Assembly: GCA_016931895.1 (NCBI GenBank) | Contig: JAFGDY010000296.1 | Location: forward strand, 1 to 55,236 | Source of the DNA: Anaerolineae bacterium | GTDB lineage: Bacteria; Chloroflexota; Anaerolineae; 4572-78; J111 | DNA: 55,236 nt | Direction of reading: 5' to 3' | Shown here: positions 24,721 to 49,181 of the stretch, piece by piece | Layout of the letters: each line of letters begins with the position of its first letter | How positions within the stretch are numbered: position 1 is the first letter of the stretch | Notes under the pieces: generated by a model | What the model saw: only the letters and a program-made list of their open reading frames with translations | Told to the model about the DNA's origin: nothing | The model's database searches: none | Program-made: the position numbers and the translations under genes

Positions 24721-24789
24721 GAGGCCGTGATTGGGGAAATCCGGTATTTGTACTATACTCTGCGTTTACCCTATCCGGCCAAAGACTGA
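24721..24789 (+). pseudogene. Remnant of a second VTC-domain gene
   Basis: Read from 24721, the frame encodes EAVIGEIRYLYYTLRL and soon stops. The intact VTC protein encoded at 28083 has QAVIEEIQYLYYTLQL at residues about 130-145. At the DNA level 24724-24762 and 28473-28511 differ at only a few positions. Nothing else of a VTC gene is present. The remnant lies four bases after the CotH 2 stop and runs straight into the 7-base repeat array, so a VTC gene once following CotH 2 has probably been deleted. Confidence 0.75.
24731..24759 (+). promoter_or_regulatory. Possible promoter inside the VTC remnant
   Basis: TTGGGG (24731-24736), 17 bases and TATACT (24754-24759). It could serve CotH 3, which otherwise has no visible promoter. 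The -35 is weak. Confidence 0.3.
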
Positions 24790-24855
24790 CGACCAAAGAC
24801 TGACGACCAACGACCAAATTTCGTCATTCGTTATTCGTCGTTGGTCATTCGTCGC
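24784..24855 (+). repeat. 7-base tandem array, two inverted halves (GACCAAM / TCGTYAT)
   Basis: Left half: GACTGAC, GACCAAA, GACTGAC, GACCAAC, GACCAAA. Right half: TCGTCAT, TCGTTAT, TCGTCGT, TGGTCAT, TCGTCGC. The halves are near reverse complements, so a long hairpin can form. The array ends two bases before the CotH 3 start codon. Confidence 0.88.
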
Positions 24856-27827: not shown

Positions 27828-27844
27828 AAATTAGAAATTAGAGA
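27810..27844 (+). repeat. 7-base tandem array (TTAGAAA) over the CotH 3 stop codon
   Basis: Five units: TTAGAAA, CTAAAAA, TTAGAAA, TTAGAAA, TTAGAGA. The stop codon TAG at 27825-27827 is part of unit three. Confidence 0.85.
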
Positions 27845-27890
27845 TGGGTAGCCCACTTTGAACAGATATTCCGTATCGCGTATTTCGTTT

Positions 27891-28082: not shown

Positions 28083-28835
28083 ATGATGAGAATAAAAGAG
28101 TATAGCCGTTTTGAACTTAAATACGTTTTGAGCCGGGAACAGCAGGGCCGGCTGGTGGAGGTGTTGGCCGATTATTTGCAGCCCGACGTTATGGGCGACG
28201 CGCAGGGGCGTTATAACATCACCAGCCTTTACTACGACACGGATGACTACAAAGCCTATTGGGATAAAATTGAAGGGCACAAGTTTCGGCGCAAGGTGCG
28301 GGTGCGGGTTTACGGCGACCAGGTGGTTACGCCCGACACCCCTTGTTTTGCCGAAATCAAACAACGCAGAAACAAGACCCTGCAAAAAAAACGAGTCAAA
28401 ATGTCCTACGCCTTGGCCATTGCCCTGTGTGGGGCCGGTGAGCCGGTGGAGAATGTGTCGGCAACAGAGCAGGCCGTGATTGAGGAAATCCAATATTTGT
28501 ATTATACTCTGCAATTGCAGCCGGCCTGCGTGGTCAGTTACGACCGCCTGGCCTTTAACGGCGGTGAATACGACCCTGGCCTGCGGGTCACGTTTGACAC
28601 CAACTTAAAAGGCCGCACCCATGACCTGTCTTTACTTTCCGCCGGCCAGGTGGAAAATCATTTTTTTATGCCGCCGGGGTCGTGTGTTCTGGAAATTAAA
28701 GTAAACTACCGGGTGCCTTACTGGTTAACCGAGCTGATCGGCAAACATCGCTGCACCTTGCGCCGAATTAGCAAATACTGCACTGCTTTGGAGCAATCCA
28801 AGGCGCTATTACAGCATCAGCAAATATTTTATTAA
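28083..28835 (+). CDS. VTC-domain protein (polyphosphate polymerase domain)
   Basis: A 250-residue single-domain protein of the VTC/TTM superfamily, whose eukaryotic members polymerise polyphosphate from ATP in a tunnel lined by basic and acidic residues. Visible tunnel motifs: SRFELKYVL (R9, E11, K13), RRKVRVRVYG, CFAEIKQRRNKTLQKKRV, and a C-terminal VLEIKVNYRVPYW. No membrane span. The start is the ATG at 28083 (or 28086) after a weak AGAGAG; the open frame back to 28035 has no support. It lies 16 bases before the DUF4956 gene and follows CotH 3, a combination known from many bacteria where the three families co-occur. Confidence 0.9.
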   Translation: MMRIKEYSRFELKYVLSREQQGRLVEVLADYLQPDVMGDAQGRYNITSLYYDTDDYKAYWDKIEGHKFRRKVRVRVYGDQVVTPDTPCFAEIKQRRNKTLQKKRVKMSYALAIALCGAGEPVENVSATEQAVIEEIQYLYYTLQLQPACVVSYDRLAFNGGEYDPGLRVTFDTNLKGRTHDLSLLSAGQVENHFFMPPGSCVLEIKVNYRVPYWLTELIGKHRCTLRRISKYCTALEQSKALLQHQQIFY

Positions 28836-33387: not shown

Positions 33388-34728
33388 ATGCGCATACTCA
33401 TCATTAATTACGAATTTCCCCCCATTGGTGCCGGCGGTGGCAAGGCCAGCCAGAAAATCGCTGCCTGCCTGGTGGAAATGGGGCATACGGTGCGGGTTAT
33501 CACCAGCCGGCCTACCCAGCTTTACACTTTTTTTGGCAATATGTCCGTGCTCGCCGGTTTGGGATTTTGGATTTACCTGGTTTACATCAAACTCGCCTTC
33601 AACAAAGACTTAAGCGACCACGGTTTTACGATCCTGGGGACTCTGCTTCTGCTGATTGGCTTTATCCTGCGCAACACCGGCCTCACCTGGGAATTGACCA
33701 ATCCTATTCGCGGCCTCAAGCCGGTTGAATTTATTGATGGAGTAGAAGTGCGGCGCATCCCGGTGTTGCGCCAGCGCCAGGAGTATTGTTCCACGTTTGA
33801 AATGGGCACGTTTTTATTGAGCGGCCTGTGGCACGGTTTGGCCCAGGCGCGTGAATTCAAACCCGACCTGGTGCACATTTTTTTTGGCCTGCCCGATGGG
33901 CCGATTGGTTGGGCCTTAAAGCGGGTGTACGGTTTGCCCTACCTCATCTCGTTGCGGGGGGCCGACGTGCCCTCGGACGAAGTCAAACGATTTGCCAAAC
34001 ACTACCGGGTGCTGCGGCCTTTTGTCCGCTGGCTCTGGCGCGACGCCGACGCCTTGGTAGCCGTGTCAAACGGCTTGCGGGAATATGCCCACGAAACCGC
34101 TATGGATTTGCCCATCCACGTTATTCCCAATGCCATTGAACTATCGCAGTTTACGCCACCCCGGCAGCGCAGCCACGACGGTCCGGTGCGTTTGCTGTTT
34201 GTGGGTCGGTTTAACGCCTTTAAGAACGTGGAAACTCTCCTGGAAGGTGTGGCCCGGCTGAAAAAGATGGGCATGGTTAATTTTGAATTACAATTGATTG
34301 GCGATGGCGAACGCCGGGCCAATTTAGAACGATTGACGGTGGCCCACCAACTCACCAAACATGTGCATTTTTTGGGCTGGGTGGACCGGGAAGCCATTGT
34401 CACCCGTTACCGGCAGGCCGACGTGTTTGTTACGGCCACCACCTGGGAAGGAATGCCCAACACCGTGTTAGAGGCAATGGCCTGTGGCCTGCCCATCGTT
34501 GCCACCCGCGCCTCCGGCCTGGGAGAATTGGTGCGCGAAGGCGTCAACGGCTACCTGGTAGACATCAACGATCCGGCTGTCCTGGCCGAACGCCTGGCCG
34601 ATCTGGTGGATAATCCCTACGAGCGACAGCGTATGGGCAAAGAAAGCCGCAAGATCGCCGAACAGGAATTTGCCTGGGAGTACATTACCGAGCAATATGT
34701 AGAAATTTATCAGAAAATTAGAAATTAG
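33388..34728 (+). CDS. GT-B glycosyltransferase (GT4/GT1-like) with two membrane helices inserted in the N-domain
   Basis: A 446-residue GT-B enzyme. The N-terminal domain starts MRILIINYEFPPIGAGGG as in GT4 enzymes. It is interrupted at about residues 47-110 by two hydrophobic segments (LAGLGFWIYLVYIKLAF and ILGTLLLLIGFIL), and then resumes (PVEFIDGVEVRRIPV). The C-terminal domain holds LLFVGRFNAFKN and the donor-site stretch GMPNTVLEAMACGLPIVAT. Cytosolic transfer of a sugar from a nucleotide to a membrane-bound acceptor is likely. The final KIRN and the stop codon come from a 7-base repeat array. Confidence 0.87.
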   Translation: MRILIINYEFPPIGAGGGKASQKIAACLVEMGHTVRVITSRPTQLYTFFGNMSVLAGLGFWIYLVYIKLAFNKDLSDHGFTILGTLLLLIGFILRNTGLTWELTNPIRGLKPVEFIDGVEVRRIPVLRQRQEYCSTFEMGTFLLSGLWHGLAQAREFKPDLVHIFFGLPDGPIGWALKRVYGLPYLISLRGADVPSDEVKRFAKHYRVLRPFVRWLWRDADALVAVSNGLREYAHETAMDLPIHVIPNAIELSQFTPPRQRSHDGPVRLLFVGRFNAFKNVETLLEGVARLKKMGMVNFELQLIGDGERRANLERLTVAHQLTKHVHFLGWVDREAIVTRYRQADVFVTATTWEGMPNTVLEAMACGLPIVATRASGLGELVREGVNGYLVDINDPAVLAERLADLVDNPYERQRMGKESRKIAEQEFAWEYITEQYVEIYQKIRN

Positions 34729-34737
34729 AGATTTCTA
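34710..34737 (+). repeat. 7-base tandem array over the GT-B stop codon
   Basis: Units TCAGAAA, ATTAGAA, ATTAGAG, ATTTCTA. The stop TAG (34726-34728) is inside unit three. Confidence 0.78.
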
Positions 34738-34745
34738 ATTCTTTT
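34716..34745 (+). terminator. AT-rich hairpin with T-run
   Basis: AATTAGAAAT and ATTTCTAATT pair perfectly (10 bp) around TAGAG and are followed by CTTTT. It overlaps the repeat array and ends five bases before the next start codon. Weakly stable. Confidence 0.4.
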
Positions 34746-34749
34746 ACCT

Positions 34750-36906
34750 ATGCGTTTACCAACTATCACCCTTATTATCCTCACCCTGGCCGGTTTTGCC
34801 CTGCGTCTGCACTATCTCATTTCCACGCATCCCTTTTTTGACGAATATACCACCGGGCTGGCCGCCCGCCAGATTTTGCAATACGGCTGGCCGGTATTGC
34901 CTTCCGGCCTATTTTACGAACACGGCCTGCTGGCCACTTACGTGATCGCCCCTTTTGCCGCTTTATTTATCAACGCGCCAGTCTCGCAATGGCAGCCTGC
35001 GCATTGGAGCTTGATGCTTGCCCGCTGGCCCAGCCTGCTCGTCAGCGCCGTCACCATTCCCTTGCTTTACACGCTTGGCCGCCGTGGGTTTACCACCTCT
35101 CTTTCCGCCCCTCTTGGCCTGTTGGCGGCCGGGCTGTTTGCCTTTAGCCCCGAAGGCATGGTCTGGGGGGGACGGGCGCGAATGTACGCCCTGGCCACCC
35201 TCCTGGTTTTGCTGGCCGTTTACTGGGCTTATCGTGGCTCGATCTGGCCCGCTCCGGCCAAATATCGCTGGTGGGCCTGGTTGACCCTTTTTTTTGCCCT
35301 GCTCACCCAACTGGGCGTTTTGACCCTACTCCCACCCTTGTTAGTAGCCATGCTTAGCCTGGGCTGGCTCTCCTCAAGACAAAAACCCGCTATCCGCCCC
35401 TGGTTTCTCAGGCCAACTGTTGTTCTGGATGGCCTGACTCTGGTGGCCATCATTGGCCTGGCGCTCCTGGTAAAACGTTTAGGCCAACCCCTTGGTGTCC
35501 CAACTTTGGTCGAGCCGGGCAGTGGTCCTCTTTGGCAGGAATTGTTCAAGACAGTCACTTACCAGACCGCCTTCCACTTTTCCTGGCTCGATGCCCTCAA
35601 ATTTCTCTCCCGCCAATTTGGCGTGCCCCACCATTTCTGGCTCACTATCGCTACCCTCATTGGCGCGGTGATCGGCCTGCTTGTTTGGCTCGCCGGCGCA
35701 AACAGTCAGAAATTAGAAATCAGAAAAAAGAAATCCATTTCTAATTCCTATTCCCTATTCTCTATTTTTCTATGGCTTGTTTTTGGCCTCATTATCCTGG
35801 AAATGATCACTTTGCTCGATCCCTTCCGCCGCAACCCCCGCTACGTGGTAATGTACCTGCCCCTTTTTTACCTCATCGCGGCCAGCGCCATCTTTAATTT
35901 TAGATTTATACTCGTTTCACCTTTGACCGCCTTATTGGGGAAAATCGGCATCCGGCATGTGGCGCAGAGAAAAGAGGGCAGGGTGTCCTGTTGGCAGCGC
36001 GGGCTACCTTCCCCGGCCCGGTTTCTCTCCCCCACGTTTGTCTCCCTCGTTCTGCTCATCTTCTTCGTAGCCGTCGGTTTTAACGACCTGCGTTTAACCC
36101 TGGTCACTCCCGAACCGGCCTATGAGGAGGCGTTAGCTTTTGTGCAGGCTAATTGGCAGCCGGGCGACACCTTGCTGACGATGAATACTCCCGCAGCCGG
36201 TCTTTATCTGGGCCATGCCGATGGCTTTACGGTTCAAAAAGAAGCCGAGCAGTTTTTGCTCAAGTCCGGCCCTGTTCCCGTTGACCGCTGGTTGGGTGCG
36301 CCCTGGGTGGGCACTGCCGCCGATTTTAATATGGCTCTCAATGCCGGTAAACGAACCTGGTTTGTTATTGATACCATTCGCCAGCCGGTTTATTTCAAAG
36401 GTGACTGGCTGGCTGTGGTCAACAATCAAATGGAGCAGGTTTGGGCCAAAGACAATGCCCTGGTCTACCGCACCCGGCCTGATCGTATTCCGTTGCCCAC
36501 CCAGCCCCAAACCCTTATCAACGCTACCCTGGGCAATTCAATTCAACTGCTTGGTTACACCCTCAGTGATGGGCCAAATTCGGCCTTGAGCCTCACTCTT
36601 TTCTGGCAACCCCTCACCTCCCTGCCCACCGATTACACCACTTTTCTACACGTTCGCAATCAAGCGGGCGATACGGTGGCGCAACAGGATGGTCAGCCCC
36701 TGGCCGGGCTTTATCCTACCAGCCATTGGCTGCCCGGCGAGACCGTGGTTGACCTCATCACCCTGTCGCTCCCCCCAGATTTGCCCGCCGGGAATTATAC
36801 CGTTTTGGTTGGCCTCTACCAGCTCGACACGCTGGAACGCCTACCCGTGGCCAACGACGCCTCCGGCGAAAACGCCGTTATCTTAGGAGAGTTCACGCTG
36901 CCATGA
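34750..36906 (+). CDS. GT-C glycosyltransferase with one beta-sandwich module (C)
   Basis: A 718-residue polytopic membrane protein. The first external loop holds STHPFFDEYTTGLAARQ, the acidic GT-C motif, and WGGRARMYAL follows in the third helix region as in PMT-like enzymes. About ten helices end near residue 440; one beta-sandwich module closes the protein (LSLTLFWQP, DYTTFLHVRNQ, PPDLPAGNYTVLVGLYQL). The loop encoded at 35705-35767 is a 7-base repeat array read in frame. No ribosome site is seen before the ATG. The next gene overlaps by four bases. Confidence 0.88.
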   Translation: MRLPTITLIILTLAGFALRLHYLISTHPFFDEYTTGLAARQILQYGWPVLPSGLFYEHGLLATYVIAPFAALFINAPVSQWQPAHWSLMLARWPSLLVSAVTIPLLYTLGRRGFTTSLSAPLGLLAAGLFAFSPEGMVWGGRARMYALATLLVLLAVYWAYRGSIWPAPAKYRWWAWLTLFFALLTQLGVLTLLPPLLVAMLSLGWLSSRQKPAIRPWFLRPTVVLDGLTLVAIIGLALLVKRLGQPLGVPTLVEPGSGPLWQELFKTVTYQTAFHFSWLDALKFLSRQFGVPHHFWLTIATLIGAVIGLLVWLAGANSQKLEIRKKKSISNSYSLFSIFLWLVFGLIILEMITLLDPFRRNPRYVVMYLPLFYLIAASAIFNFRFILVSPLTALLGKIGIRHVAQRKEGRVSCWQRGLPSPARFLSPTFVSLVLLIFFVAVGFNDLRLTLVTPEPAYEEALAFVQANWQPGDTLLTMNTPAAGLYLGHADGFTVQKEAEQFLLKSGPVPVDRWLGAPWVGTAADFNMALNAGKRTWFVIDTIRQPVYFKGDWLAVVNNQMEQVWAKDNALVYRTRPDRIPLPTQPQTLINATLGNSIQLLGYTLSDGPNSALSLTLFWQPLTSLPTDYTTFLHVRNQAGDTVAQQDGQPLAGLYPTSHWLPGETVVDLITLSLPPDLPAGNYTVLVGLYQLDTLERLPVANDASGENAVILGEFTLP
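35705..35767 (+). repeat. In-frame 7-base tandem array (ATYAGAA then CCTATTC)
   Basis: GTCAGAA, ATTAGAA, ATCAGAA, AAAAGAA, ATCCATT, TCTAATT, CCTATTC, CCTATTC, TCTATTT. It encodes a Lys/Ser-rich loop (QKLEIRKKKSISNSYSLF) between two helices. Confidence 0.82.
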
Positions 36907-39080
36907 CCGCTCATCTCTCAAACAGCCAAAATCCGCCAGCCCCCAACCGCAATCCATTTCCTGTCTCTTTTCTCGACCATCCCCGTCTCGTTGCTTTTCT
37001 TCTTTTCCTACTCGCGCTATTCCCTCGTCTGCCTGGCCTGAAACGTTTCTTGACCAGCGATGAGAACACCAACATTTTTTTTGCCGGCAGCGATGTAATT
37101 GCCGCCTTTTTGCGGGGCGACTGGCGCGGCACTTATTGGCATTTTTATCCGGGTGTAACGATGAGTTGGCTGGATGCTCTGGGCATAGCGGGTCAATATT
37201 TGGTTGACCTTTTCACCGGCCAGCCAGTCCCCCCCTTCACCGAGTACATTTATGGCGATATTTTGACGTTGCTGGTAGCCAATCGTTTGCCCTATGCCCT
37301 CTTAACCGCGGCGGCTGTGCCGGCCGTTTACCTGCTGGCCTGCCAATTGTTGCCCAAACGTTTGGCCCTGCTGGGCGCGCTCTTTCTGGCCGTTGACCCC
37401 TTTTACCTGGCCCATTCCCGCATGGCCCATGGCGACGCGCCGGTGGCTGTTTTTATGAGCCTATCGGCCCTGGCTTTTTTTGTGTACCTTGAAAAGTTGG
37501 CGAAAAACAAGTTAGGGAACGAAAAAACTGGCAATAATTTCTACTTTCTAATTTCTAATTTTTTTCCCCGGTCGGCCTTTATTTATCTGGTTCTCTCCGC
37601 CGTTTTTGGCGGCCTGGCCGCGCTCACCAAAGCTCCCGGCCAATTTATGGCCCTATTTGTCATTGGTATGTCTGGGGGCTGCGCCGGGCTAAAACTCTGG
37701 CAGGACAAAAAACAACTAAGCCGCTGGCCGCAGTCGGTCATCCGCTTGGTTCTGCCCTGGCTTGCAGTTGTCGTCGTTTGGGGGGGTGTGGCGCTCTTCG
37801 TCTTCGTTCTGCTCTGGCCCAGTATGTGGGTGGACCCCCTGGGCACGTTTAACCAGATGTGGGCCGAAACCTTTGGCAAGGTCGAGGAAGGCCACCTGGT
37901 TTACTTTTTGGGCCGGGCTACGCTTGACCCCGGACCCTGGTTCTATTTTTACGTCATTCCCTTCCGGCTTACGCCCGTAGTCCTGCTTGGCAGCGTCTTA
38001 TCTTTATTCGTCTTTATCCCTAACCTTCATCCCCACCGGACAGGTTCAACTCGCCGGGCCTCCTTCTACTTCTGGCTATTTGTTATTGCCCTATTGTTTT
38101 TTGGCAATCTCAGTCCCAAAAAACAGGATCGTTACCTGCTACCGCTGTTCCCGTTTCTGGATCTGCTGGCGGCCATTGGCTGGATGGGTTTGTTAAATTG
38201 GGTGTTCGGCTCCTTTTTTAAATCTCAAATCTCAAATCTCAAATCCCTAAGCCCGGCCTTTTTAATTTCTAATTTCTTACTTTTCATTCTCCTGGTATTT
38301 CACTTCCTGCCGGTTCTCACCTACTACCCTTACTATCTCACTTACTTCAACCCGCTACTGGGCGGCCCCACTCGCGCGGCAAAAACAACGTTGATGGGCT
38401 GGGGCGAAGGTATGGAGCAAGTCGCGGCTTATCTCAATACCAAACCCAACGCCGAACAGCTTTACGTAGCCTCAACCCCATCCCAAACGCTGCTGCCTTA
38501 CTTTGCCGGGACGGGCGAGAATTTTTATACCAACGACATCGCCTTCCGCGCCGATTATGTGGTGCTCTATCTGGCCCAAATGCAGCGCCTGGCCCCCAGC
38601 CCGGAAATTGTGCGTTATTTTGAAGCGCAACCGCCGGAGAAAATTATCACCATCCAGGATGTCGTTTACGCCAAAGTCTATCCCGGCCCCAAACTCATCC
38701 TCACCGACCTTCCGCCTACAGCCATTCCCCTCAATATTGGTTTGGCCGATACCCTGCGCCTGGCCGGTTACGAAAGGCAAAACTCCCGTCTAACTCTCTA
38801 CTGGCATGCCCTGACTCCCCTGTCTGTTGACTATACTATCTCGGTCCGTGCCCGCGCCGCTGAGGGGCAACTGCTGGCCCAACAGGATAGCTGGCCGGTT
38901 AATGGCTTGCTGCCCACCTCCCAATGGCGGCAAGGTGATTACGTAACCGATACGCACCTTTTGGAATTGCCTGAAACGGAGGTCGAGCAAATAGAGAGTT
39001 TTGAAATTGTGGTCTACCACCTGGCCACCGGCGAAACTCTTGGCCCGCCTATTGTTATCCCAATGAACCATGAACAGTGA
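36903..39080 (+). CDS. GT-C glycosyltransferase with one beta-sandwich module (D)
   Basis: A 725-residue GT-C protein of the same subgroup as genes A and B. Its acidic motif is FLTSDENTNIFF, and the HFYPGVTMSWL block follows. WPSMWVDPLGTFNQM and LDPGPWFYFYVIPFR are present, then PYYLTYFNPLLGG and GWGEGMEQVAAYLN. The final module is partly eroded (LTLYWHALTPLSVDYTI). Two loops are encoded by 7-base arrays (37541-37561, and 38221-38248 with 38260-38287). Paralogues B and gene 43908 have much shorter loops at one or both places. The start overlaps the previous stop (ATGA). Confidence 0.88.
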   Translation: MTAHLSNSQNPPAPNRNPFPVSFLDHPRLVAFLLFLLALFPRLPGLKRFLTSDENTNIFFAGSDVIAAFLRGDWRGTYWHFYPGVTMSWLDALGIAGQYLVDLFTGQPVPPFTEYIYGDILTLLVANRLPYALLTAAAVPAVYLLACQLLPKRLALLGALFLAVDPFYLAHSRMAHGDAPVAVFMSLSALAFFVYLEKLAKNKLGNEKTGNNFYFLISNFFPRSAFIYLVLSAVFGGLAALTKAPGQFMALFVIGMSGGCAGLKLWQDKKQLSRWPQSVIRLVLPWLAVVVVWGGVALFVFVLLWPSMWVDPLGTFNQMWAETFGKVEEGHLVYFLGRATLDPGPWFYFYVIPFRLTPVVLLGSVLSLFVFIPNLHPHRTGSTRRASFYFWLFVIALLFFGNLSPKKQDRYLLPLFPFLDLLAAIGWMGLLNWVFGSFFKSQISNLKSLSPAFLISNFLLFILLVFHFLPVLTYYPYYLTYFNPLLGGPTRAAKTTLMGWGEGMEQVAAYLNTKPNAEQLYVASTPSQTLLPYFAGTGENFYTNDIAFRADYVVLYLAQMQRLAPSPEIVRYFEAQPPEKIITIQDVVYAKVYPGPKLILTDLPPTAIPLNIGLADTLRLAGYERQNSRLTLYWHALTPLSVDYTISVRARAAEGQLLAQQDSWPVNGLLPTSQWRQGDYVTDTHLLELPETEVEQIESFEIVVYHLATGETLGPPIVIPMNHEQ
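37541..37561 (+). repeat. In-frame 7-base tandem array (CTAATTT)
   Basis: CTACTTT, CTAATTT, CTAATTT. It encodes FYFLISNF in an extended loop absent from paralogues A, B and 43908. Confidence 0.75.
38221..38287 (+). repeat. In-frame 7-base tandem arrays (AATCTCA; TTCTAAT)
   Basis: AATCTCA three times then AATCCCT (38221-38248). A second series at 38260-38287 reads TTTTAAT, TTCTAAT, TTCTTAC, TTTTCAT. They encode KSQISNLKSLSPAFLISNF before the helix that leads to TYFNPLLGG. Confidence 0.85.
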
Positions 39081-39131
39081 AACCGTAAACCTTAAACAAC
39101 CCCCTGCCCTTCTCTCCTCTCTCCTCTCCCT
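39065..39131 (+). repeat. 7-base arrays spanning a stop/start junction (GAACAGT; TCTCTCC)
   Basis: GAACCAT, GAACAGT, GAAACCG, TAAACCT, TAAACAA (39065-39099), then TCTCTCC, TCTCTCC, TCTCCCT (39111-39131). The first holds both the ATG of the next gene (39070) and the TGA of the previous one (39078-39080). Confidence 0.75.
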
Positions 39132-41244
39132 TCTTCCCTTCTTTATCATCCTCCTGGCTACATTTCTCCGCCTCTACCACCTGCCAGTTCTACCCCCCGG
39201 CCTAAATTTTGACGAAGCCGGCAACGGCGTGGCTGCCTTTGACGTTTTACGCGGCGAGCCAAAACTGTGGTGGCGGATTGGCGGGGGTAAAGAACCGCTC
39301 TGGCCCTATCTTATGGCGGCAAGCACCACCATTTTGGGGAATATTCCCCTGGCCCTGCGTCTGCCCGCCGCTTTGGTTGGCATTTTAAGCGTGGCTGCGG
39401 TTTATCCTTTGGGGCTTGTGCTGTTCGGCGGCGCAAACCGGCAGGGTTGTCCTCATGCGCGGCTGATTTCTCTGCTAACGATGCTTGGCCTGGCCCTGTC
39501 TGCCTGGCATCTTCATTTTAGCCGCCTCGGTTTTCGAGCCATTCTCCTGCCTTTATTTTCTACCCTGGGATTTTATTTTTTGTGGCGCAGTATTGTCAGG
39601 AGCCAGGAACCAGGAACCGGGCGTCGAATATTTTTTGCCCTGGTCTTATCGGCGTTTTTTGTGGCGCTGGCGGTTTATGCCTACCTGGCCGCCCGGTTAT
39701 TGCTGCTGGCGCCCCTGCTCTTTTTTGCGCTCCATTGGTTGAACGTTTTTGCCCGCAGCCACCGGGCCGGAAGCCCGCCAATGGCGGCGTTTACTCGCCC
39801 CCTCCTCCTGCTAATTTCTAAGTTCCTATTTCTCCTTTTTCTCTTTCTCTCCCCCCTCCTCGTCTACTTTCTTTTCCACCCGGCCGATTTTATGACCCGC
39901 TCAACCGCCGTATCCATTTTTAATCCTGCCTGGCGCCAGGGCGATTTGTTTGGCGCAGCCGGGCGCGTCTTGACCCTCACCCTTGGCACCTTTGTTGGTT
40001 TTACCGGCGACCCCAACCCCCTGGTCAATTTGCCCGGCCAACCTGCCGTGCCGGTTTTGCTGGCTTCCTTTTTTTTGTTGGGGGTTTTGGTCAGTCTCTA
40101 CCGCCTTATCCGTCCTCGACCCCTTCTATCCGCCAATCCTTATCTGTTTCTGCTCTGCTGGTGGGCCGTTATGCTGCTCCCGGCCCTGCTCGCCCCCGAA
40201 GGCGCGCCCCACCATCTGCGCCTCATCGGCGCCATTGTGCCTACCTACCTTTTCATTGCTGTAGGAATGACTGCCGCCGCCGGGCTGCTGGTCAAACTTA
40301 TCAGCTCTATTTTGCGTTACCCAAAATACGCCCTCTGTCCTCATCTGCTATCTGCTACCTGCTATCTGCTACCTGCTATCTGCTACCTACTCCTGGCTTT
40401 GCAAACTTACTCTAACTACTTTCTCCGCTGGCCTGCGGCGGTTGACTTTACCCTGCCTTTCGATCTCTACGCCGTTCGCCTGGCTAATGACATCGCCCAG
40501 GCTCCGCCTGATACCGTTTACGTGTTGCCCATGGATATTCGCGCCGGGCCGGAAGCGCGACACTATACCCTGGATTACCTGTTGGCCTCTTACCGGCCTT
40601 CAGCCTACATTTACCTGCCCGTTGACGAGCATAACGCCGAAACCCTGCTCACCACCCGGGCCGTTGCCGGCAAAAACGAGCTGCGCCTGGTCCGCTGGAC
40701 CGCGGACAAACACCACGAGGCCGACGCCAAAGAAATTGTCGCTTTTTTGCTGCAAACAAATGCCGTCCTCGTAACGCGGGAATCGTATCCGGTATACGAT
40801 CTTGAAACTTATACCCTCAACAGAAACGCCTCCTTTACGCTGCCGGCCATCACTCAGCCCATTGGCGCTACCTTCGACAATTTGCTGCGCCTGGATGCTG
40901 CCTTTATCCCTCCCACCGCCGCCCCCGGTCACTCGCTGCCCGTCGCCTTGACCTTTGCCCCCCTGGCCCAAATGGAGGCGGATTACAAGGTTTCTCTGCG
41001 CCTCATTAGCCCCAACGGCGAACGGGTCGCCCAAAAAGACCGGGTCTTGTTACACAATTTCCACCAGGGCACCTCACTCTGGCCGCCTGAAACGGCCAAT
41101 GAGTATTACCTGCTGCCAATTCCATCAGACGCCCAACCGGGCCAATATACGGTAGGGGTGGTTGTTTATCACCCCGACACGCAGGCTCCCCTGCTGGCCG
41201 GTGGCCTGGTGGAAGTGCCCCTGGGCGCTGTTTGGGTAAAGTGA
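39070..41244 (+). CDS. GT-C glycosyltransferase with one divergent beta-sandwich module (E)
   Basis: A 724-residue polytopic protein. The acidic motif is LNFDEAGNGVAAFDVLRG, typical of ArnT/PMT-like enzymes; GGGKEPLWPYL and FSRLGFRAILLP follow. About eleven helices are predicted before residue 460. The soluble tail contains one poorly conserved module (MEADYKVSLRLISPNGER, PGQYTVGVVVYHPDTQ). Three 7-base arrays are read in frame (39595, 39811, 40343), and the N-terminal 20 codons derive from two more. The start overlaps the previous gene by 11 bases. Confidence 0.87.
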   Translation: MNSETVNLKQPPALLSSLLSLLPFFIILLATFLRLYHLPVLPPGLNFDEAGNGVAAFDVLRGEPKLWWRIGGGKEPLWPYLMAASTTILGNIPLALRLPAALVGILSVAAVYPLGLVLFGGANRQGCPHARLISLLTMLGLALSAWHLHFSRLGFRAILLPLFSTLGFYFLWRSIVRSQEPGTGRRIFFALVLSAFFVALAVYAYLAARLLLLAPLLFFALHWLNVFARSHRAGSPPMAAFTRPLLLLISKFLFLLFLFLSPLLVYFLFHPADFMTRSTAVSIFNPAWRQGDLFGAAGRVLTLTLGTFVGFTGDPNPLVNLPGQPAVPVLLASFFLLGVLVSLYRLIRPRPLLSANPYLFLLCWWAVMLLPALLAPEGAPHHLRLIGAIVPTYLFIAVGMTAAAGLLVKLISSILRYPKYALCPHLLSATCYLLPAICYLLLALQTYSNYFLRWPAAVDFTLPFDLYAVRLANDIAQAPPDTVYVLPMDIRAGPEARHYTLDYLLASYRPSAYIYLPVDEHNAETLLTTRAVAGKNELRLVRWTADKHHEADAKEIVAFLLQTNAVLVTRESYPVYDLETYTLNRNASFTLPAITQPIGATFDNLLRLDAAFIPPTAAPGHSLPVALTFAPLAQMEADYKVSLRLISPNGERVAQKDRVLLHNFHQGTSLWPPETANEYYLLPIPSDAQPGQYTVGVVVYHPDTQAPLLAGGLVEVPLGAVWVK
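39595..39622 (+). repeat. In-frame 7-base tandem array (RCCAGGA)
   Basis: GTCAGGA, GCCAGGA, ACCAGGA, ACCGGGC, encoding VRSQEPGTG in a loop between helices. Confidence 0.82.
39811..39852 (+). repeat. Degenerate in-frame 7-base array (CTAATTT-like)
   Basis: CTAATTT, CTAAGTT, CCTATTT, CTCCTTT, TTCTCTT, TCTCTCC. It encodes a Leu/Phe-rich membrane stretch (LISKFLFLLFLFLSP). Confidence 0.55.
40343..40391 (+). repeat. In-frame 7-base tandem array, seven units (AYCTGCT)
   Basis: ATCTGCT, ATCTGCT, ACCTGCT, ATCTGCT, ACCTGCT, ATCTGCT, ACCTACT. The clearest array of the window. It encodes a heptad-periodic membrane segment, LLSATCY then LLPAICY then LLL. Confidence 0.95.
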
Positions 41245-41252
41245 GCGTTCTT

Positions 41253-41281
41253 TTGCCAGCCCTTCCGCCGCATGGTATGAT
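41253..41281 (+). promoter_or_regulatory. Promoter for the GT-C gene at 41294
   Basis: TTGCCA (41253-41258), 17 bases and TATGAT (41276-41281), each five of six. Transcription would start near 41288, only about six bases ahead of the ATG, so the mRNA would be nearly leaderless. Confidence 0.65.
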
Positions 41282-41293
41282 ACCGGGCCGTAG

Positions 41294-43921
41294 ATGACCG
41301 TGGTTAAACAGATTGCCCAAACCAAAAAACCTTTTCTCTTTGCCGAGGCCGCCATCAGCCTCGGCCTTTTCCTGTTGGCCTTGCTGCCCCGGGCTTATGC
41401 CTTGCAGCATTTTGTCACCGCCGACGAGGCCAAGTGGGTCTATCGCTCCGCCCAATTTTTGTCTGCTTTTTTGCGGGGCGATTTTGCCGCAACCACCGTT
41501 AACCTGACCCCTGCCGTGACCACCACTTGGTTGGGCAGCCTGGGTTTGGCCGCTTACCACAGCCTGCATTGGGCCGATATCGGTCTCTCTCTGCCCGAAT
41601 GGTTATTGACCCTGCCGGAATTCCGCCCTGAGTTAGACGTATTGGCGGCCACTCGCTGGCCAATGGTTATCTTGACCTCCCTGAGTGTGGCGGCCGTTTA
41701 CCTTCTAACCCGCTCCCTGTTCAACCGCGCGTTGGCCTTTGTGGCGGCGGCCTTTATCGCGCTTTCGCCCCACTTTGTCGCTCTTTCTCGCATTCTGGGC
41801 CACGATGCTCCCGCCGCTGTTTTTATGACTCTGTCCCTGTTACTGCTGCTGTGGGCAAACAATTTAGACGAGTTTGTGCCCGCTCAAGCTGTTCGCCGGG
41901 AACAAAAATCAAACCGGCGCAAGACAATGCGCCGGTTTGCGCCCCACCTGCTGCTCGTTCTTTCCGGCCTGATGGCCGGCCTGGCGTTTCTCTCCAAAGC
42001 GCCGGCCTTATTTCTCATTCCCTTTGCCATTCTGGTCTTTGCCGGTCGGGTCTGGCGGCAGAGCGCCTCGCTCTATTTTTGGTTCAAACGATTTTTACTC
42101 TGGCTTTTTGCCGCCTACCTTGCTTTCCTGATCTTCTGGCCCGCTGCTTGGGTTGACCCACTTGGCCGCCCTCTGGCGGTAATAGAGAACGCCTTTTTCT
42201 CCGCCACCGATCAGGAAGAAGCCGACGCCGAAGGTTATTGGCAGGCGCCCGACCTCGGCCCTTTTTACTACCTGGCGCATGGCTCCTTCAAACTCAGCCC
42301 ACTGGTGCTGGTTGGGGCGGGCCTGGCTGCCTGGTATCTGAGCCGGTCAATTCGCCAAACACCGAATCTGCCCAATGACCACGCAAAGAATAAAAAAGAA
42401 TCACTCGTTTCCCCCAAAAACTATCCAATGACCCTTCTATGGCTGCTCGGCTTTGTTCTCCTCTTCACCCTCTTCATCACCCTCAGCGACAAACGCAGCC
42501 CCCGTTACATCCTGCCCGCCTTTCCGCCCCTGGCGCTGCTGGCCGCTTATGGCTGGTTGACGTTGTTGGCGCAAGTCTCAGGGGTCAGGAATCAGGAATT
42601 AGGGGATAAAAGTGAGACGCCAGAGGCTACCACTACGCAATACGTAATACGCCATACGCAACACCTCTTTCCTCTCTCCTCTCTTCTCTTCCCCTTTCTG
42701 CTCACCCTCTCCGCGCTCATCATCCTGCTGCCCTACGCGCCTTACTACTTTACCTATTTTAATCCGCTGCTGGGCGGGCCGTACACCGCCCCGCGCCTGG
42801 TCAAAATAGGTTGGGGAGAGGGATTGGACCAGGTTGGCCGTTTTTTGCAGGCCCAATGGCCCAATAGCCGGGTGGGCGCGCCCTATGCCTCAACCGTAGC
42901 CCCCTTTTTTGCGGGCGACCTCTCGGACGTAATGGGCGACCACCTGGATTACGTGGTGCTCTACCGCAAACAAGTGCAGTCCGGCGAACCGTCGCCCGCC
43001 TTCATCCGTTATTATGAATATTCCGGCTCTATTTTTTCGGTGGATTTGAACGGCATCCGGTATGCCGATGTTTACCCCGGCCCGGCCCTCCAGTGGGCCT
43101 TAACCCTCACGCCCGGCCTGGATCACGGCATTTTGCCCCTGCCGCTTGGCTTTCGCCCGCTTACGCCCTATGGTCGGTTGGGCGAACTATTGGCAGTTGA
43201 CGTGGTCTGGCTGGCCAAAGGCCCTTTGCCCAACACGCCCTCTATCGTCACCTTGCAGCCCCTTTCTGTTTTCGACTTTTTGAACGAACACAACGACGAG
43301 CACGGCACGTCCCTTGAACCCCGGGCCGGCTTCGTTCTGGCCGAAGGGCCGGGCAGCCTGACCCGCCTGGCCGACGACTTGATTGTCAGCCGCCACCTCC
43401 TGCCTCTCCCGGCGGATTTGCCACGAGGCCGGTATGCCTTGTTGGTGGATGGCCGGCCCCTGGGTGAAGTTGAGGCGCGGAATTTTCAACTCCCGCCGGA
43501 GCTGAATCCGGTCAACCAGGTGATTTTTGACCAACAGATTGGCCTGGCCGCTTATCAACTCTCATTAGCTGATGATACCCTTGGTCTCAACATCGCCTGG
43601 CGCGCCGAAACAGCCCATCTGCCCGATTATACTGTGTTTGTCCAACTCCTTAACGCCGAAACCAACGAGCGCCTGGCCGGGGTGGATACGCAGCCCCTCG
43701 CGGGCGACTGGCCCACCGGTGCCTGGGTTAAAGAAGAAGTAGTGTTTGACAAATATGTTGTCTCCGTGCCGCCCGATTTGCCGCCCGGTTTTTACAAACT
43801 GATTGTTGGCTTCTATCAACCCGCCACCGGTCGGCGTTTGACTCTGCCCGGCGGCCAGGATTATTGGACCGTGCCGTGGACGCTTGTTCGTGAGAAACAA
43901 AACCAAAATGACCAGCCCTAA
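41294..43921 (+). CDS. GT-C glycosyltransferase with beta-sandwich tail (F)
   Basis: An 875-residue member of the A/B/D subgroup. Acidic motif FVTADEAKWVYRSAQF, then LTPAVTTTWLGSLG, FWPAAWVDPLGRP, and PYYFTYFNPLLGG with GWGEGLDQVGRFL. The tail has one degenerate and one good module (LNIAWRAETAHLPDYTVF, PPDLPPGFYKLIVGFYQP). Two loops carry extra DNA read in frame: a 28-base perfect palindrome at 41911-41938, and a composite 7-base array at 42575-42696. It has its own promoter and no ribosome site. It overlaps the next gene by 14 bases. Confidence 0.88.
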   Translation: MTVVKQIAQTKKPFLFAEAAISLGLFLLALLPRAYALQHFVTADEAKWVYRSAQFLSAFLRGDFAATTVNLTPAVTTTWLGSLGLAAYHSLHWADIGLSLPEWLLTLPEFRPELDVLAATRWPMVILTSLSVAAVYLLTRSLFNRALAFVAAAFIALSPHFVALSRILGHDAPAAVFMTLSLLLLLWANNLDEFVPAQAVRREQKSNRRKTMRRFAPHLLLVLSGLMAGLAFLSKAPALFLIPFAILVFAGRVWRQSASLYFWFKRFLLWLFAAYLAFLIFWPAAWVDPLGRPLAVIENAFFSATDQEEADAEGYWQAPDLGPFYYLAHGSFKLSPLVLVGAGLAAWYLSRSIRQTPNLPNDHAKNKKESLVSPKNYPMTLLWLLGFVLLFTLFITLSDKRSPRYILPAFPPLALLAAYGWLTLLAQVSGVRNQELGDKSETPEATTTQYVIRHTQHLFPLSSLLFPFLLTLSALIILLPYAPYYFTYFNPLLGGPYTAPRLVKIGWGEGLDQVGRFLQAQWPNSRVGAPYASTVAPFFAGDLSDVMGDHLDYVVLYRKQVQSGEPSPAFIRYYEYSGSIFSVDLNGIRYADVYPGPALQWALTLTPGLDHGILPLPLGFRPLTPYGRLGELLAVDVVWLAKGPLPNTPSIVTLQPLSVFDFLNEHNDEHGTSLEPRAGFVLAEGPGSLTRLADDLIVSRHLLPLPADLPRGRYALLVDGRPLGEVEARNFQLPPELNPVNQVIFDQQIGLAAYQLSLADDTLGLNIAWRAETAHLPDYTVFVQLLNAETNERLAGVDTQPLAGDWPTGAWVKEEVVFDKYVVSVPPDLPPGFYKLIVGFYQPATGRRLTLPGGQDYWTVPWTLVREKQNQNDQP
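41911..41938 (+). repeat. Perfect palindrome inside a coding loop
   Basis: AAACCGGCGC (41911-41920) and GCGCCGGTTT (41929-41938) flank an 8-base loop. An A5 run precedes it, so on the minus strand it looks like an intrinsic terminator (stem then ATTTTT). It is translated as part of a basic loop (NRRKTMRRFAPH). Confidence 0.85.
42575..42696 (+). repeat. Composite in-frame 7-base array, three unit families
   Basis: GTCTCAG, GGGTCAG, GAATCAG, GAATTAG, GGGATAA, AAGTGAG, ACGCCAG. After about ten bases: TACGCAA, TACGTAA, TACGCCA, TACGCAA, CACCTCT, TTCCTCT, CTCCTCT, CTTCTCT. It encodes a 40-residue polar loop just before the last helix. Confidence 0.87.
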
Positions 43922-46505
43922 CGGTTATTCGCCGTCCGTTTCCCGTTTCAGTTTTTTTGTTTCAGGCCTGGCTAAGGCAGGCTGGTTTATTGCCCTGGCC
44001 CTCTTTCTCCTGGCCTTCCTCCCCCGCGTGCTGGACCTGGACCGCTTCCTCACCCCCGACGAATTCCTATGGGTGGATCGCTCCCGCAATTTTTTAGCCG
44101 GGCTGACCAACCCGGCTTACCAATGCGACACCCGGGTTGAAAAATGGGCCTTCACCGAGGGCCTGGCCTGCACGCTGCGCACCGGCCACCCCGGCGTGAC
44201 CACCATGTGGAGCGGCAGCTTTGGCTTTTTGCTGCGCTGGCTGGCAGATGGCCGGCCCGAATCCTTGCATGATTACGTGGTGGCCGTCTCTACCAACCCC
44301 CTGGACCCCACCTTTATTGCCCCGGAACGGCTGGGCATTGTTTTGTTGACCTCCTTGGGCGTGGTGGTCTTTTATGTGTTGGCTCGCCGCCTGTTTGGAC
44401 CGGCTGTGGCTCTGGTGGCCGCCGCGCTGTTGGCCCTCAACCCCTTTCACGTGGCCTATTCCCGCGTGATCCACCACGACGCCCTCAGTACCACGTTTAT
44501 GCTTCTGTCTGTGCTGTGCGCCTTTATCTATTGGGGAGAACGGCAGGGGCGGGGCTGGTTGGCATTATCCGGCCTGCTGGCCGGTTTTGCCTTTTTGAGT
44601 AAACTCTCCTCCCTGTTTCTGATGCCCTTTATCGCCCTCATCGGCCTCTGGTTTTTTGTTTCCCATTGGCGGCAGATTGCCAAAAAGCCATCCTCTCTCC
44701 TCTCTCCTCTCTCCTCTCTCGTGCTGGATGGTCTGCTCTGGTTTGCCGTAACCGTCGCCGTTGTCTTCATTTTTTGGCCCGCCATGTGGGTCATCCCTGT
44801 GGAAACCTTGCAAACCGCTTTTGCCCTGGGGTTTCAGTATAGCACCGGCCCGCACGCTAAAGGCGTTTTCTTTTTAGGCGAAAGTGTGGCGGACCCCGGC
44901 CCCTGGTTCTATCCGGTTACCTGGCTTTACCACACCTCGCCGTTGGTGATGTTGGGCCTGGTTGGCGGGGCGGTAGTCTGGCTCTTCAATAGGTGGCGCA
45001 ATAAATCGCCCAAACAGGCAGAAAGCCAACAGGCCATACCTGGCCAGTCAACCTTCACCCGTTACCTGCCCCTTATCCTGCTCTTCATCTTGGGTTACTA
45101 CTTGCTCATGACCATCGGCGAGAAAAAGCAGGAGCGTTATTTCCTGCCCGTCTACCCCTGGTTCGATCTCATCGCCGCTGCCGGTTTGGTTTCTATGGCC
45201 ACTTCTCTATACCTAAAACGCAATACGCCACGCGCAATACGCCATCCCCTCATCCTGCTCCTCATCATCCTGCTGACCAACGGCTATCTGCTTGCCTCCA
45301 CTTTTCCCTACTACTTTACCTACTATAACCCCCTGCTGGGTGGTATCAAGAGCGCGGCTAGGGTCATTACCATTGGCTGGGGCGAAGGGCTAAACCTGGC
45401 CGCCGATTATCTCAACACCCATGTTGACCCCGCCCAAACCCGCGTGGCCAGTTGGTACGAATCCACCTTTGTCCCCTATTATCACGGCCCTTCCATCAGT
45501 TACTCCAAAGAAAAAGGCAAAGCCCTGGCCGGGGATTACGTTATCTTTTACGTCAATCAGACGCAGCGGGAGTACCCGGATGAGATAATGTTTGATTATT
45601 TTGAGAGTCGTTTTGAGCCGGAAAAGGTCATCTTGCTGCAAGGCCTGGATTACGCCTGGATTTACCCCAGCCTGGGCGTTGACCATTACCTTCAAGATCA
45701 AACCTACACCGGCATTGCCTCCTTGCTGGCCTGGCAGTGGGCCGCGGGTGATGAGGCCCCTCTTCTGCCCGGCCAATCCGCCGAATTTGAACTTTATTGG
45801 GAATATCTGGGCAAAAAACCGGACGAGACCTTCTTTTTCCGCCTGGTTGACGCACAAGGGCGGGCCTGGGCCGAGGGTCTGAGTGAAGTGGCGGCCGGCC
45901 AGAATCCGCCTGTGGCCCGGTGGCGCGAGGGCGAAATCATTTATGAACGGGGCGCGCTGCCCCTGCCGGCCGACCTCCCGCCCGGCCAATACCGGCTGCA
46001 AATCGGCTTTTATACCAGGGCGCCGGCTGTAACCGAGGGCGAACTTCTCTTTACCGTTCCCGACGAGGAAGCCTTGCTTACGATTGGCCACGCCGGGCCG
46101 GCGGATTATAAGCTACCGGCCGTGGCTGTCCCTATTGACCAACCCCTGGGCCACTCCCTGACTCTCTTGGGCGCGGCCTGGCCCACCGACGCCCTCTCGC
46201 CGGAGACCATCATTCCGTTGGACCTCTACTGGCGGGTGGAGCGGCCTCTCCCGGCCCAGACCAAACTGCACGTAGGGCTAATGACCGAAGGGGGCGAGGC
46301 CCAACAAGCCTGGTTTGATCTGACCCTGGCCGAAACGTTCAATCTTGACCAAACCACCTGGCAGCCCGGCGATATTGTCCACACCCACTGGCCGCTTGAT
46401 TTACTGCCCGGCGCGCCTCCTGGCGTTTATTCCTTTGAATTGGTTTTAGCTGAAAATCTCGCGAAAACGGTTGCCTGCGGGAAGGTGAGGCTTGAGGAGC
46501 GGTGA
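43908..46505 (+). CDS. GT-C glycosyltransferase with two beta-sandwich modules (G)
   Basis: An 865-residue member of the A/B/D/F subgroup and the best preserved one. Acidic motif FLTPDEFLWVDRSRNFL, then RTGHPGVTTMWSGSFG, FWPAMWVIPVETLQ, ADPGPWFYPVTWLYHTSP and PYYFTYYNPLLGG with IGWGEGLNLAADYLN. Two modules close it (FELYWEYLG, PADLPPGQYRLQIGFY; then LDLYWRVE, PPGVYSFELVL). 7-base arrays lie at 44694 and 45215. The start is the ATG at 43908, inside the previous gene's end; a TTG eight codons upstream is also in frame. Possible last gene of the glycan block. Confidence 0.9.
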   Translation: MTSPNGYSPSVSRFSFFVSGLAKAGWFIALALFLLAFLPRVLDLDRFLTPDEFLWVDRSRNFLAGLTNPAYQCDTRVEKWAFTEGLACTLRTGHPGVTTMWSGSFGFLLRWLADGRPESLHDYVVAVSTNPLDPTFIAPERLGIVLLTSLGVVVFYVLARRLFGPAVALVAAALLALNPFHVAYSRVIHHDALSTTFMLLSVLCAFIYWGERQGRGWLALSGLLAGFAFLSKLSSLFLMPFIALIGLWFFVSHWRQIAKKPSSLLSPLSSLVLDGLLWFAVTVAVVFIFWPAMWVIPVETLQTAFALGFQYSTGPHAKGVFFLGESVADPGPWFYPVTWLYHTSPLVMLGLVGGAVVWLFNRWRNKSPKQAESQQAIPGQSTFTRYLPLILLFILGYYLLMTIGEKKQERYFLPVYPWFDLIAAAGLVSMATSLYLKRNTPRAIRHPLILLLIILLTNGYLLASTFPYYFTYYNPLLGGIKSAARVITIGWGEGLNLAADYLNTHVDPAQTRVASWYESTFVPYYHGPSISYSKEKGKALAGDYVIFYVNQTQREYPDEIMFDYFESRFEPEKVILLQGLDYAWIYPSLGVDHYLQDQTYTGIASLLAWQWAAGDEAPLLPGQSAEFELYWEYLGKKPDETFFFRLVDAQGRAWAEGLSEVAAGQNPPVARWREGEIIYERGALPLPADLPPGQYRLQIGFYTRAPAVTEGELLFTVPDEEALLTIGHAGPADYKLPAVAVPIDQPLGHSLTLLGAAWPTDALSPETIIPLDLYWRVERPLPAQTKLHVGLMTEGGEAQQAWFDLTLAETFNLDQTTWQPGDIVHTHWPLDLLPGAPPGVYSFELVLAENLAKTVACGKVRLEER
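44694..44721 (+). repeat. In-frame 7-base tandem array (TCTCTCC)
   Basis: TCTCTCC three times then TCTCTCG, encoding SLLSPLSSL in a loop. The same unit occurs at 39111. Confidence 0.88.
45215..45249 (+). repeat. In-frame 7-base tandem array (AATACGC)
   Basis: AAAACGC, AATACGC, CACGCGC, AATACGC, CATCCCC, encoding KRNTPRAIRHP in the loop homologous to the arrays at 38221 and 42634. Confidence 0.82.
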
Positions 46506-49146: not shown

Positions 49147-49181
49147 ATACGTGTTGCGTATTGCGTGTTTTGTGTTTTTAT
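49147..49181. repeat. Intergenic 7-base array (TTGCGTA)
   Basis: ATACGTG, TTGCGTA, TTGCGTG, TTTTGTG, TTTTTAT. It is the complement-strand form of the TACGCAA family and lies between the sortase and cupin genes. Confidence 0.68.

Follow-up and report, generated by a model that had tools for sequence, protein, structure and literature searches.

Contig JAFGDY010000296.1 of an uncultured Anaerolineae bacterium (Chloroflexota), analyzed here over positions 1 to 55,236 (the window), contains between positions 33388 and 46505 six glycosyltransferase genes into which tandem arrays with a period of 7 nucleotides (heptad arrays) are set. Considering that 7 is not a multiple of 3, so that slippage by one unit shifts the reading frame, this locus raises the question of whether such arrays are phase-variation switches that toggle single surface-glycan transferases, as the original prediction proposed on the basis of the window alone, or neutral insertions tolerated in loops, which it named as the alternative. 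The results presented below indicate that the heptad elements, which occur genome-wide, are very probably passengers that genes tolerate and whose reading frames purifying selection keeps intact, and not on/off switches.

Reading frames across the arrays

Arrays were detected by period-7 self-similarity scoring (match +1, mismatch -1.5), and the frame test consisted of determining by tblastn whether the frame changes across each array of score at least 10 that is flanked by homology to GT-C glycosyltransferases from other loci, the sample comprising one genome per species. All 82 arrays tested, spread over 10 genomes and about 41 GT-C genes, were found to be in frame and none was broken. In a positive control involving the in silico deletion of one 7-nt unit, 68 arrays were scored as broken and 7 as open, with 7 yielding no call. 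Were the frame free, the probability of encountering 41 open genes would be (1/3)^41. The number of perfect copies per GT-C array (median 2.6, maximum 5.6) is low when compared with the heptanucleotide switch neuO of Escherichia coli K1, for which repeat numbers of 3-53 are reported, 65.6% of 64 genomes carrying an out-of-frame allele (PMC13001214).

As 7 and 3 share no common factor, all phases are read in any array of at least three units, and the unit is, for a given strand, either stop-bearing or safe in every frame. The unit cycle was shown to be stop-free for 68 of 78 GT-C coding strands, as compared to 137 of 256 intergenic array strands (P=1.8e-8), and those GT-C arrays whose unit cycle includes a stop are either short or carry a base change at the corresponding phase, such as the TAC present instead of TAA at 37542-37544. 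The opposite strand carries a stop in 48 of the 78 GT-C arrays, which would explain the tendency of genes to keep only one of the two hairpin arms described below.

Heptad arrays of the window

At least 16 period-7 loci had been predicted to the right of 24.7 kb, and applying a threshold score of at least 8 indeed yielded 18 arrays in this part of the window, most of the period-7 arrays also being listed by Tandem Repeats Finder. A single array was found to the left of 24.7 kb, a contrast that is unmatched by any other period below 14. Thirteen arrays are located within the six glycosyltransferase genes, the reading frames of which are open across all of them, as had been noted. These genes were subjected to two codon-preserving randomizations, corresponding to the proposed comparison with random sequence: codon shuffles generated 0.29 period-7 arrays (standard deviation 0.52, maximum 2) and synonymous-codon shuffles 0.97 (standard deviation 0.86, maximum 3). 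Therefore, neither codon usage nor protein composition accounts for the 13 arrays, and chance periodicity was ruled out. When periods 4-15 were compared in the same genes, only period 14, being twice 7, came close to period 7. The units had been described as unrelated; many unit types are in fact present, but AAATTAG recurs at five sites (27811, 34715, 35708, 37535 and 38259) and TCCTCTC at three (39111, 42664 and 44691). The arrays are as follows, L1 to L4 denoting the four loops of GT-C proteins specified in the next section.

24779..24853, strand not assigned: two heptad arrays forming an inverted pair (GACCAA.. / TTCGTCA..) in the spacer that separates two genes, with a weak fold (z -1.84)
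27811..27845, + strand: AAATTAG array over the end of the CotH-domain gene 24858-27827, its TAG stop being provided by the unit
34715..34733, + strand: AAATTAG array at the end of the GT4 gene 33388-34728, its TAG stop being provided by the unit
35708..35733, + strand: AAATTAG array in loop L3, in frame, forming the purine-rich first arm of a pair
35737..35766, + strand: second arm of this pair, inverted (ATTTCTA../CCTATTC) and in frame, also in loop L3
37535..37561, + strand: TTTCTAA array, in frame, loop L1, containing the TAC mentioned above
38220..38254, + strand: AAATCTC array, in frame, loop L4
38259..38277, + strand: TTTCTAA array, in frame, lying in the loop region of the preceding array
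39080..39097, + strand: short AAACCNT array at the N-terminus of gene 39070..41244
39111..39137, + strand: TCTCTCC array, in frame, N-terminal segment
39597..39621, + strand: CAGGAAC array, in frame, loop L1
40343..40391, + strand: AYCTGCT array, in frame, with a 14-base higher-order unit, loop L4
42578..42603, + strand: TCAGGAA array, in frame, loop L4
42631..42659, + strand: AATACGC array, in frame, loop L4
42664..42689, + strand: CCTCTCT array, in frame, loop L4
44691..44720, + strand: TCCTCTC array in loop L2, in frame, comprising 4.3 perfect copies
49150..49178, strand not assigned: intergenic heptad array of AACACGC type

A 42-nt direct repeat (90% identical) was also observed, one copy of which (24722-24763) lies in the spacer beside the inverted heptad pair and the other (28471-28512) inside an open reading frame.

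Host genes and position of the arrays within GT-C proteins

Most of the arrays had been noted to lie within GT-C open frames. Five of the six genes are GT-C or GT-C-like on the basis of Pfam PMT/PMT_2 matches or of a family hidden Markov model (HMM) built within this analysis; the remaining gene, at 33388, specifies a GT4 enzyme.

33388..34728, + strand: GT4-type glycosyltransferase (Pfam Glycos_transf_1, E 2e-41), the 3' end of the gene lying within an AAATTAG array
34750..36906, + strand: GT-C-like multi-pass membrane protein (family HMM 2.8e-33, 8 transmembrane segments, no Pfam hit), holding the inverted array pair
36903..39080, + strand: GT-C glycosyltransferase (PMT_2; Pfam and family HMM)
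39070..41244, + strand: GT-C-like protein (family HMM 4.7e-69, 10 transmembrane segments, no Pfam hit)
41294..43921, + strand: GT-C glycosyltransferase (PMT; Pfam and family HMM)
43884..46505, + strand: GT-C glycosyltransferase (PMT_2/PMT; Pfam, family HMM and predicted GT-C fold)

Apart from genes 34750 and 39070, the family HMM recovers three further GT-C genes of the window (11984, 16076 and 19118), which among them contain one borderline array (19218-19232, score 8); GT-C genes as such do not require arrays. The AlphaFold2 model of gene 43884 (mean predicted local distance difference test score, pLDDT, of 76.8) was used in a Foldseek search and matched OST, Pmt4, ALG12, ArnT and AftA, all of which adopt GT-C folds, whereas a sequence search of the PDB with the family profile returned nothing.

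A total of 67 arrays could be placed on the GT-C HMM (14 in loop L1, 9 in L2, 9 in L3, 26 in L4, 7 at the N-terminus, one at the C-terminus and one elsewhere), with 12 further arrays lying outside the aligned part of divergent GT-C members. Accordingly, 58 of the 67 are confined to four loops spanning about 77 of the 721 HMM columns (P about 7e-47), the catalytic and extracytoplasmic segments being nearly free of arrays. GT-C enzymes have their N-terminus inside and their catalytic DE motif outside, and in the model of gene 43884, in which this motif corresponds to residues 59-60, loops L1-L4 follow transmembrane segments 4, 6, 8 and 10. All four array-bearing loops are thus predicted to be cytoplasmic.

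Orthologues of G006 (the second genome of the family that was sampled) and G010 represent two congeneric species and, being 62-79% identical, align closely with conserved flanks except in the array loops, where unit and length differ or where the array is absent on one side. In 17 such differing loop blocks, one being a large alignment gap, all length differences are multiples of 3, both genes being open, and only five are multiples of 21, so that gaining or losing units in threes does not by itself account for the preserved frame. An AAGGATG array (L043:8656 and L048:7163) retains its length, encoding FILHPSSFIL without a gap in both species at 76% protein identity. Neutral insertion in loops, the alternative originally named, is supported by the placement in four loops, inferred to be cytoplasmic, and at the N-terminus, by the arrays of the Mfd linker (see below) and by orthologues that carry other units or none.

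Some GT-C loops (L043, L044, L046 and L048) also contain the recurrent peptides HHLPLARGSS and RRPIRQAQGGPL, which resemble translations of other repeats, and the loops thus seem to host several kinds of repeat.

Genome-wide occurrence of heptad arrays

The genome of the window (G000) was sampled by stretches (884 kb) and G006 at regular spacing (260 kb), genes being delimited by means of a simple codon-usage caller written for this analysis. The named relatives are likewise uncultured Anaerolineae/Anaerolineales (Chloroflexota), the relative in the same genus being the metagenome-assembled genome Zod_Metabat.569. At a score of at least 12, the G000 sample contains 56 period-7 arrays, whereas no other period between 4 and 13 exceeds 12 arrays, with 29 arrays of period 14 and 19 of period 21, both multiples of 7. 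The G006 sample contains 74 period-7 arrays, with periods that are not multiples of 7 being far fewer. Period 8 is also elevated in G006 (19 arrays), and neighbouring period-8 arrays, across all sampled loci, pair in inverted orientation only (7 pairs).

The leading units are specific to each genome, being AACGACC/AACGACG, AATTCAC and AAATTAG in G000 and AAGGATG, AAATCGT, ACTCCCT, ACGCATC and ACCGTCT in G006. Of 150 genomes of the class that were compared, 11 contain AAGGATG arrays, the number of matches in a genome ranging from 0 to 97, and G000 has none.

Array density in G000 amounts to 0.23 per kb in GT-C genes, 0.27 per kb in intergenic DNA and 0.016 per kb in other genes, the corresponding values for G006 being 0.70, 1.08 and 0.057 per kb. 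The GT-C density therefore approaches the intergenic one, which counts in favour of tolerance. While the window was selected for its arrays, GT-C loci in relatives were selected by homology. With the window removed, arrays were present in 4 of 20 GT-C genes of G000 as compared to 9 of 583 other genes (P=5e-4), and in G006 in 10 of 15 versus 13 of 216 (P=3e-8), or 10 of 15 versus 4 of 37 for genes of at least 500 amino acids (P=1e-4).

The search of the own and related genomes, as originally suggested, thus returned period 7 as the dominant period and GT-C genes as enriched, but arrays are also carried by the housekeeping gene mfd, as well as by genes for a P-type ATPase, a radical SAM enzyme, a methyltransferase and an RHS-repeat protein. 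Arrays of differing units occupy the variable linker of Mfd (around residues 402-462) in G000 (locus L131), G001 (L132), G003 (L136), G004 (L135), G006 (L133) and G010 (L137), all of them open, the array of G004 exceeding 120 nt and encoding repeats of LTIGNEQ. Their presence in the linker of a repair helicase fits tolerated linkers, and not surface-sugar switching. The RHS-repeat protein (L027 6828-13094), which harbours an in-frame AATTCAC array, has a C-terminal match to Ntox44.

Intergenic arrays are located at a median distance of approximately 57 nt from the upstream stop codon and are denser where the flanking genes share an orientation (0.57 per kb) than in convergent gaps (0.18 per kb). 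This excess is the opposite of what is expected of intrinsic terminators, which were rejected as a candidate.

Inverted pairing of neighbouring arrays

Among 60 pairs of neighbouring arrays within 80 nt of each other, taken from all settings, 47 are inverted, one is direct and 12 are unrelated, random array pairs being inverted in about 11% and direct in about 11% of cases. The purine-rich arm comes first in 41 of the 47 inverted pairs. An inverted partner is present for 69 of 101 intergenic arrays, 14 of 64 GT-C arrays and 4 of 194 arrays in a placement control. Two inverted pairs are found in the window, one in the spacer at 24779-24853 and one within gene 34750 at 35708-35766. Strong folds were obtained for elements of L053 (z -9.7) and L043 (z -8.5), with other elements folding weakly, and the single-arm arrays at 38220, 40343 and 44691 showed no folding when tested. 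No shared sequence or conserved ends were found across the elements, the units of which vary by element and by genome.

The typical spacer form may be pictured as a hairpin consisting of a purine-rich heptad run, a short loop and an inverted pyrimidine-rich heptad run, of which genes would usually retain a single arm. The coding strand of the window is pyrimidine-rich at 35001-45000 (AT skew to -0.39, GC skew to -0.24), and a pyrimidine-rich GT-C coding strand is consistent with the excess of pyrimidine-rich arms in genes (57 of 78 arrays).

Weighing the explanations

It is proposed that the arrays are members of a set of short heptanucleotide repeat elements dispersed throughout Anaerolineae genomes, in-gene copies of which would be tolerated in permissive loops with their frame maintained by purifying selection. 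Purifying selection as the cause of the open frames, and the absence of a function, are inferred. Several points weigh against this explanation. Cytoplasmic placement of the loops depends on the usual GT-C topology and on a model of moderate confidence (pLDDT 76.8); the few arrays with 4-5.6 perfect copies could slip at some rate; and, given the sampling behind the frame test, unit changes may occur at low frequency. Moreover, for genes of at least 500 amino acids in G000 without the window, the GT-C enrichment (3 of 19 versus 7 of 128) is not significant (P=0.12), and an enrichment of GT-C genes far above other genes could also stem from a function.

The alternative that survives best concerns how the arrays arise and is compatible with tolerance as an explanation for their persistence in genes: period-7 polymerase slippage in place, with the inverted partner generated by replication strand switching, would require no dispersing element. 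This local origin is a serious candidate, although somewhat more doubtful than not. It is favoured by the lack of conserved ends or of a common sequence among elements, and by the report, cited in PMC4679880 together with a polymerase-based proposal, that heptanucleotides outnumber other repeats of 5-11 nt in most prokaryote genomes. The absence of reverse transcriptase from the genome points the same way. However, unit dictionaries are used repeatedly in any one genome and vary from one genome to another, and the AAGGATG arrays are patchily distributed.

More tentatively, the heptad-armed hairpins might constitute a dispersing class of palindromic DNA with no fixed sequence but a fixed grammar (a 7-base period, and a purine-rich followed by a pyrimidine-rich arm) and with a unit dictionary that turns over from lineage to lineage; these elements would have colonised protein genes because a 7-base array yields one and the same cyclic heptapeptide whatever the frame. 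Two routes of spread were rejected: reverse-transcriptase-templated repeats, as the genome has no RVT_1 match, and mobilisation of the type involving repetitive extragenic palindromic (REP) sequences and their RAYT transposases, as the DNA analyzed around the four Y1_Tnp matches of the genome contains no period-7 array, action in trans being possible.

A selected role for the loop peptides, for example as spacers or as contacts of the transferases with the membrane surface, is unlikely. The concentration of arrays in four loops of one fold and the recurrence of similar peptides (HPSSFIL, HASRIT) across genes would be expected under such a role, but peptide recurrence follows from unit recurrence, three GT-C genes of the window do without arrays save for one borderline case, and unit, length and presence all vary between orthologues with conserved flanks.

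Finally, despite a unit length that is not a multiple of 3, an enrichment in glycosyltransferase genes and the existence of heptanucleotide switches such as neuO, phase variation is highly improbable and was rejected on the grounds of the frame test with its working control, the low number of perfect copies and the arrays in Mfd, to which may be added the mid-gene location of the arrays, their presence in several loops of one gene and the unchanged length of one of them between two species.

In this one lineage, heptad arrays occur in two settings that lend themselves to a base-by-base comparison, namely as free hairpins in spacers and as constrained copies in genes. This comparison separates what concerns production (period 7, inverted pairing and lineage-specific units) from a selective filter (a stop-free strand, a length that is a multiple of 3 and a permissive loop). 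It calls for caution, in that non-triplet repeats in surface-glycan genes should not be taken for phase switches by default, and identifies the arrays as a means by which loops of membrane enzymes, and even of Mfd, come to change rapidly. Heptanucleotide repeats, which are reported to be the most frequent repeats of 5-11 bases in most prokaryotes, have so far received little explanation.

Comparison with known systems

No earlier report of such arrays in Chloroflexota was found in the open-licence literature. Short tandemly repeated repetitive (STRR) sequences of cyanobacteria, to which the arrays had been likened, the GGGAATC repeats of Xanthomonas and Nostoc and the TAACTGA repeats of Beggiatoaceae consist, as do the arrays described here, of degenerate tandem units at many loci, mainly non-coding and genome-specific (PMC4692102; PMC4679880), the G-rich heptamers (GGGAATC) in particular being mainly non-coding (PMC4692102). 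As in heptanucleotide simple sequence repeats, tandem units beyond chance, many dispersed loci and a favoured period of 7 were found. The likeness to STRR sequences holds for style but not for host, STRR hosts being heterocystous cyanobacteria and the present host belonging to the Anaerolineae (Chloroflexota). Furthermore, unlike in these three repeat families, a single genome carries many unit types, which are mostly arranged in spacers as inverted pairs, and GT-C loops frequently contain in-frame copies, whereas coding copies are under-represented there.

A 7-base tandem unit is also found in two contingency loci, neuO (E. coli K1) and hmwA (Haemophilus influenzae) (PMC13001214; PMC8262952), neuO being a case of an in-frame coding heptanucleotide repeat in a surface-glycan gene (PMC13001214). 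The repeats of neuO and hmwA are long, near-perfect and variable with many OFF alleles, whereas those described here are short, imperfect and mid-gene, with no OFF state among the 82 tested. Palindromes of the REP type or of the miniature inverted-repeat transposable element (MITE) type similarly form short hairpins in spacers and sometimes in genes; in contrast to these, the heptad elements show no conservation of terminal sequence, and no array was found to adjoin a Y1 transposase.

The closest behavioural parallel would appear to be the Rickettsia palindromic elements (RPE), which are dispersed in a genome and occur as in-frame insertions within protein genes unrelated to one another, the product apparently remaining functional (PMC10969869). 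Heptad arrays are likewise in frame in unrelated genes (those for GT-C proteins, Mfd, P-type ATPase, radical SAM enzyme and methyltransferase). RPE are palindromes, whereas the inverted partner of the heptad arrays is common in spacers and much rarer in GT-C genes, and in-gene heptad copies, unlike RPE, often keep one arm. RPE are about 100-150 bp in length and conserve a family sequence and peptide; what the heptad elements have in common is the 7-base period and the polarity of their arms.

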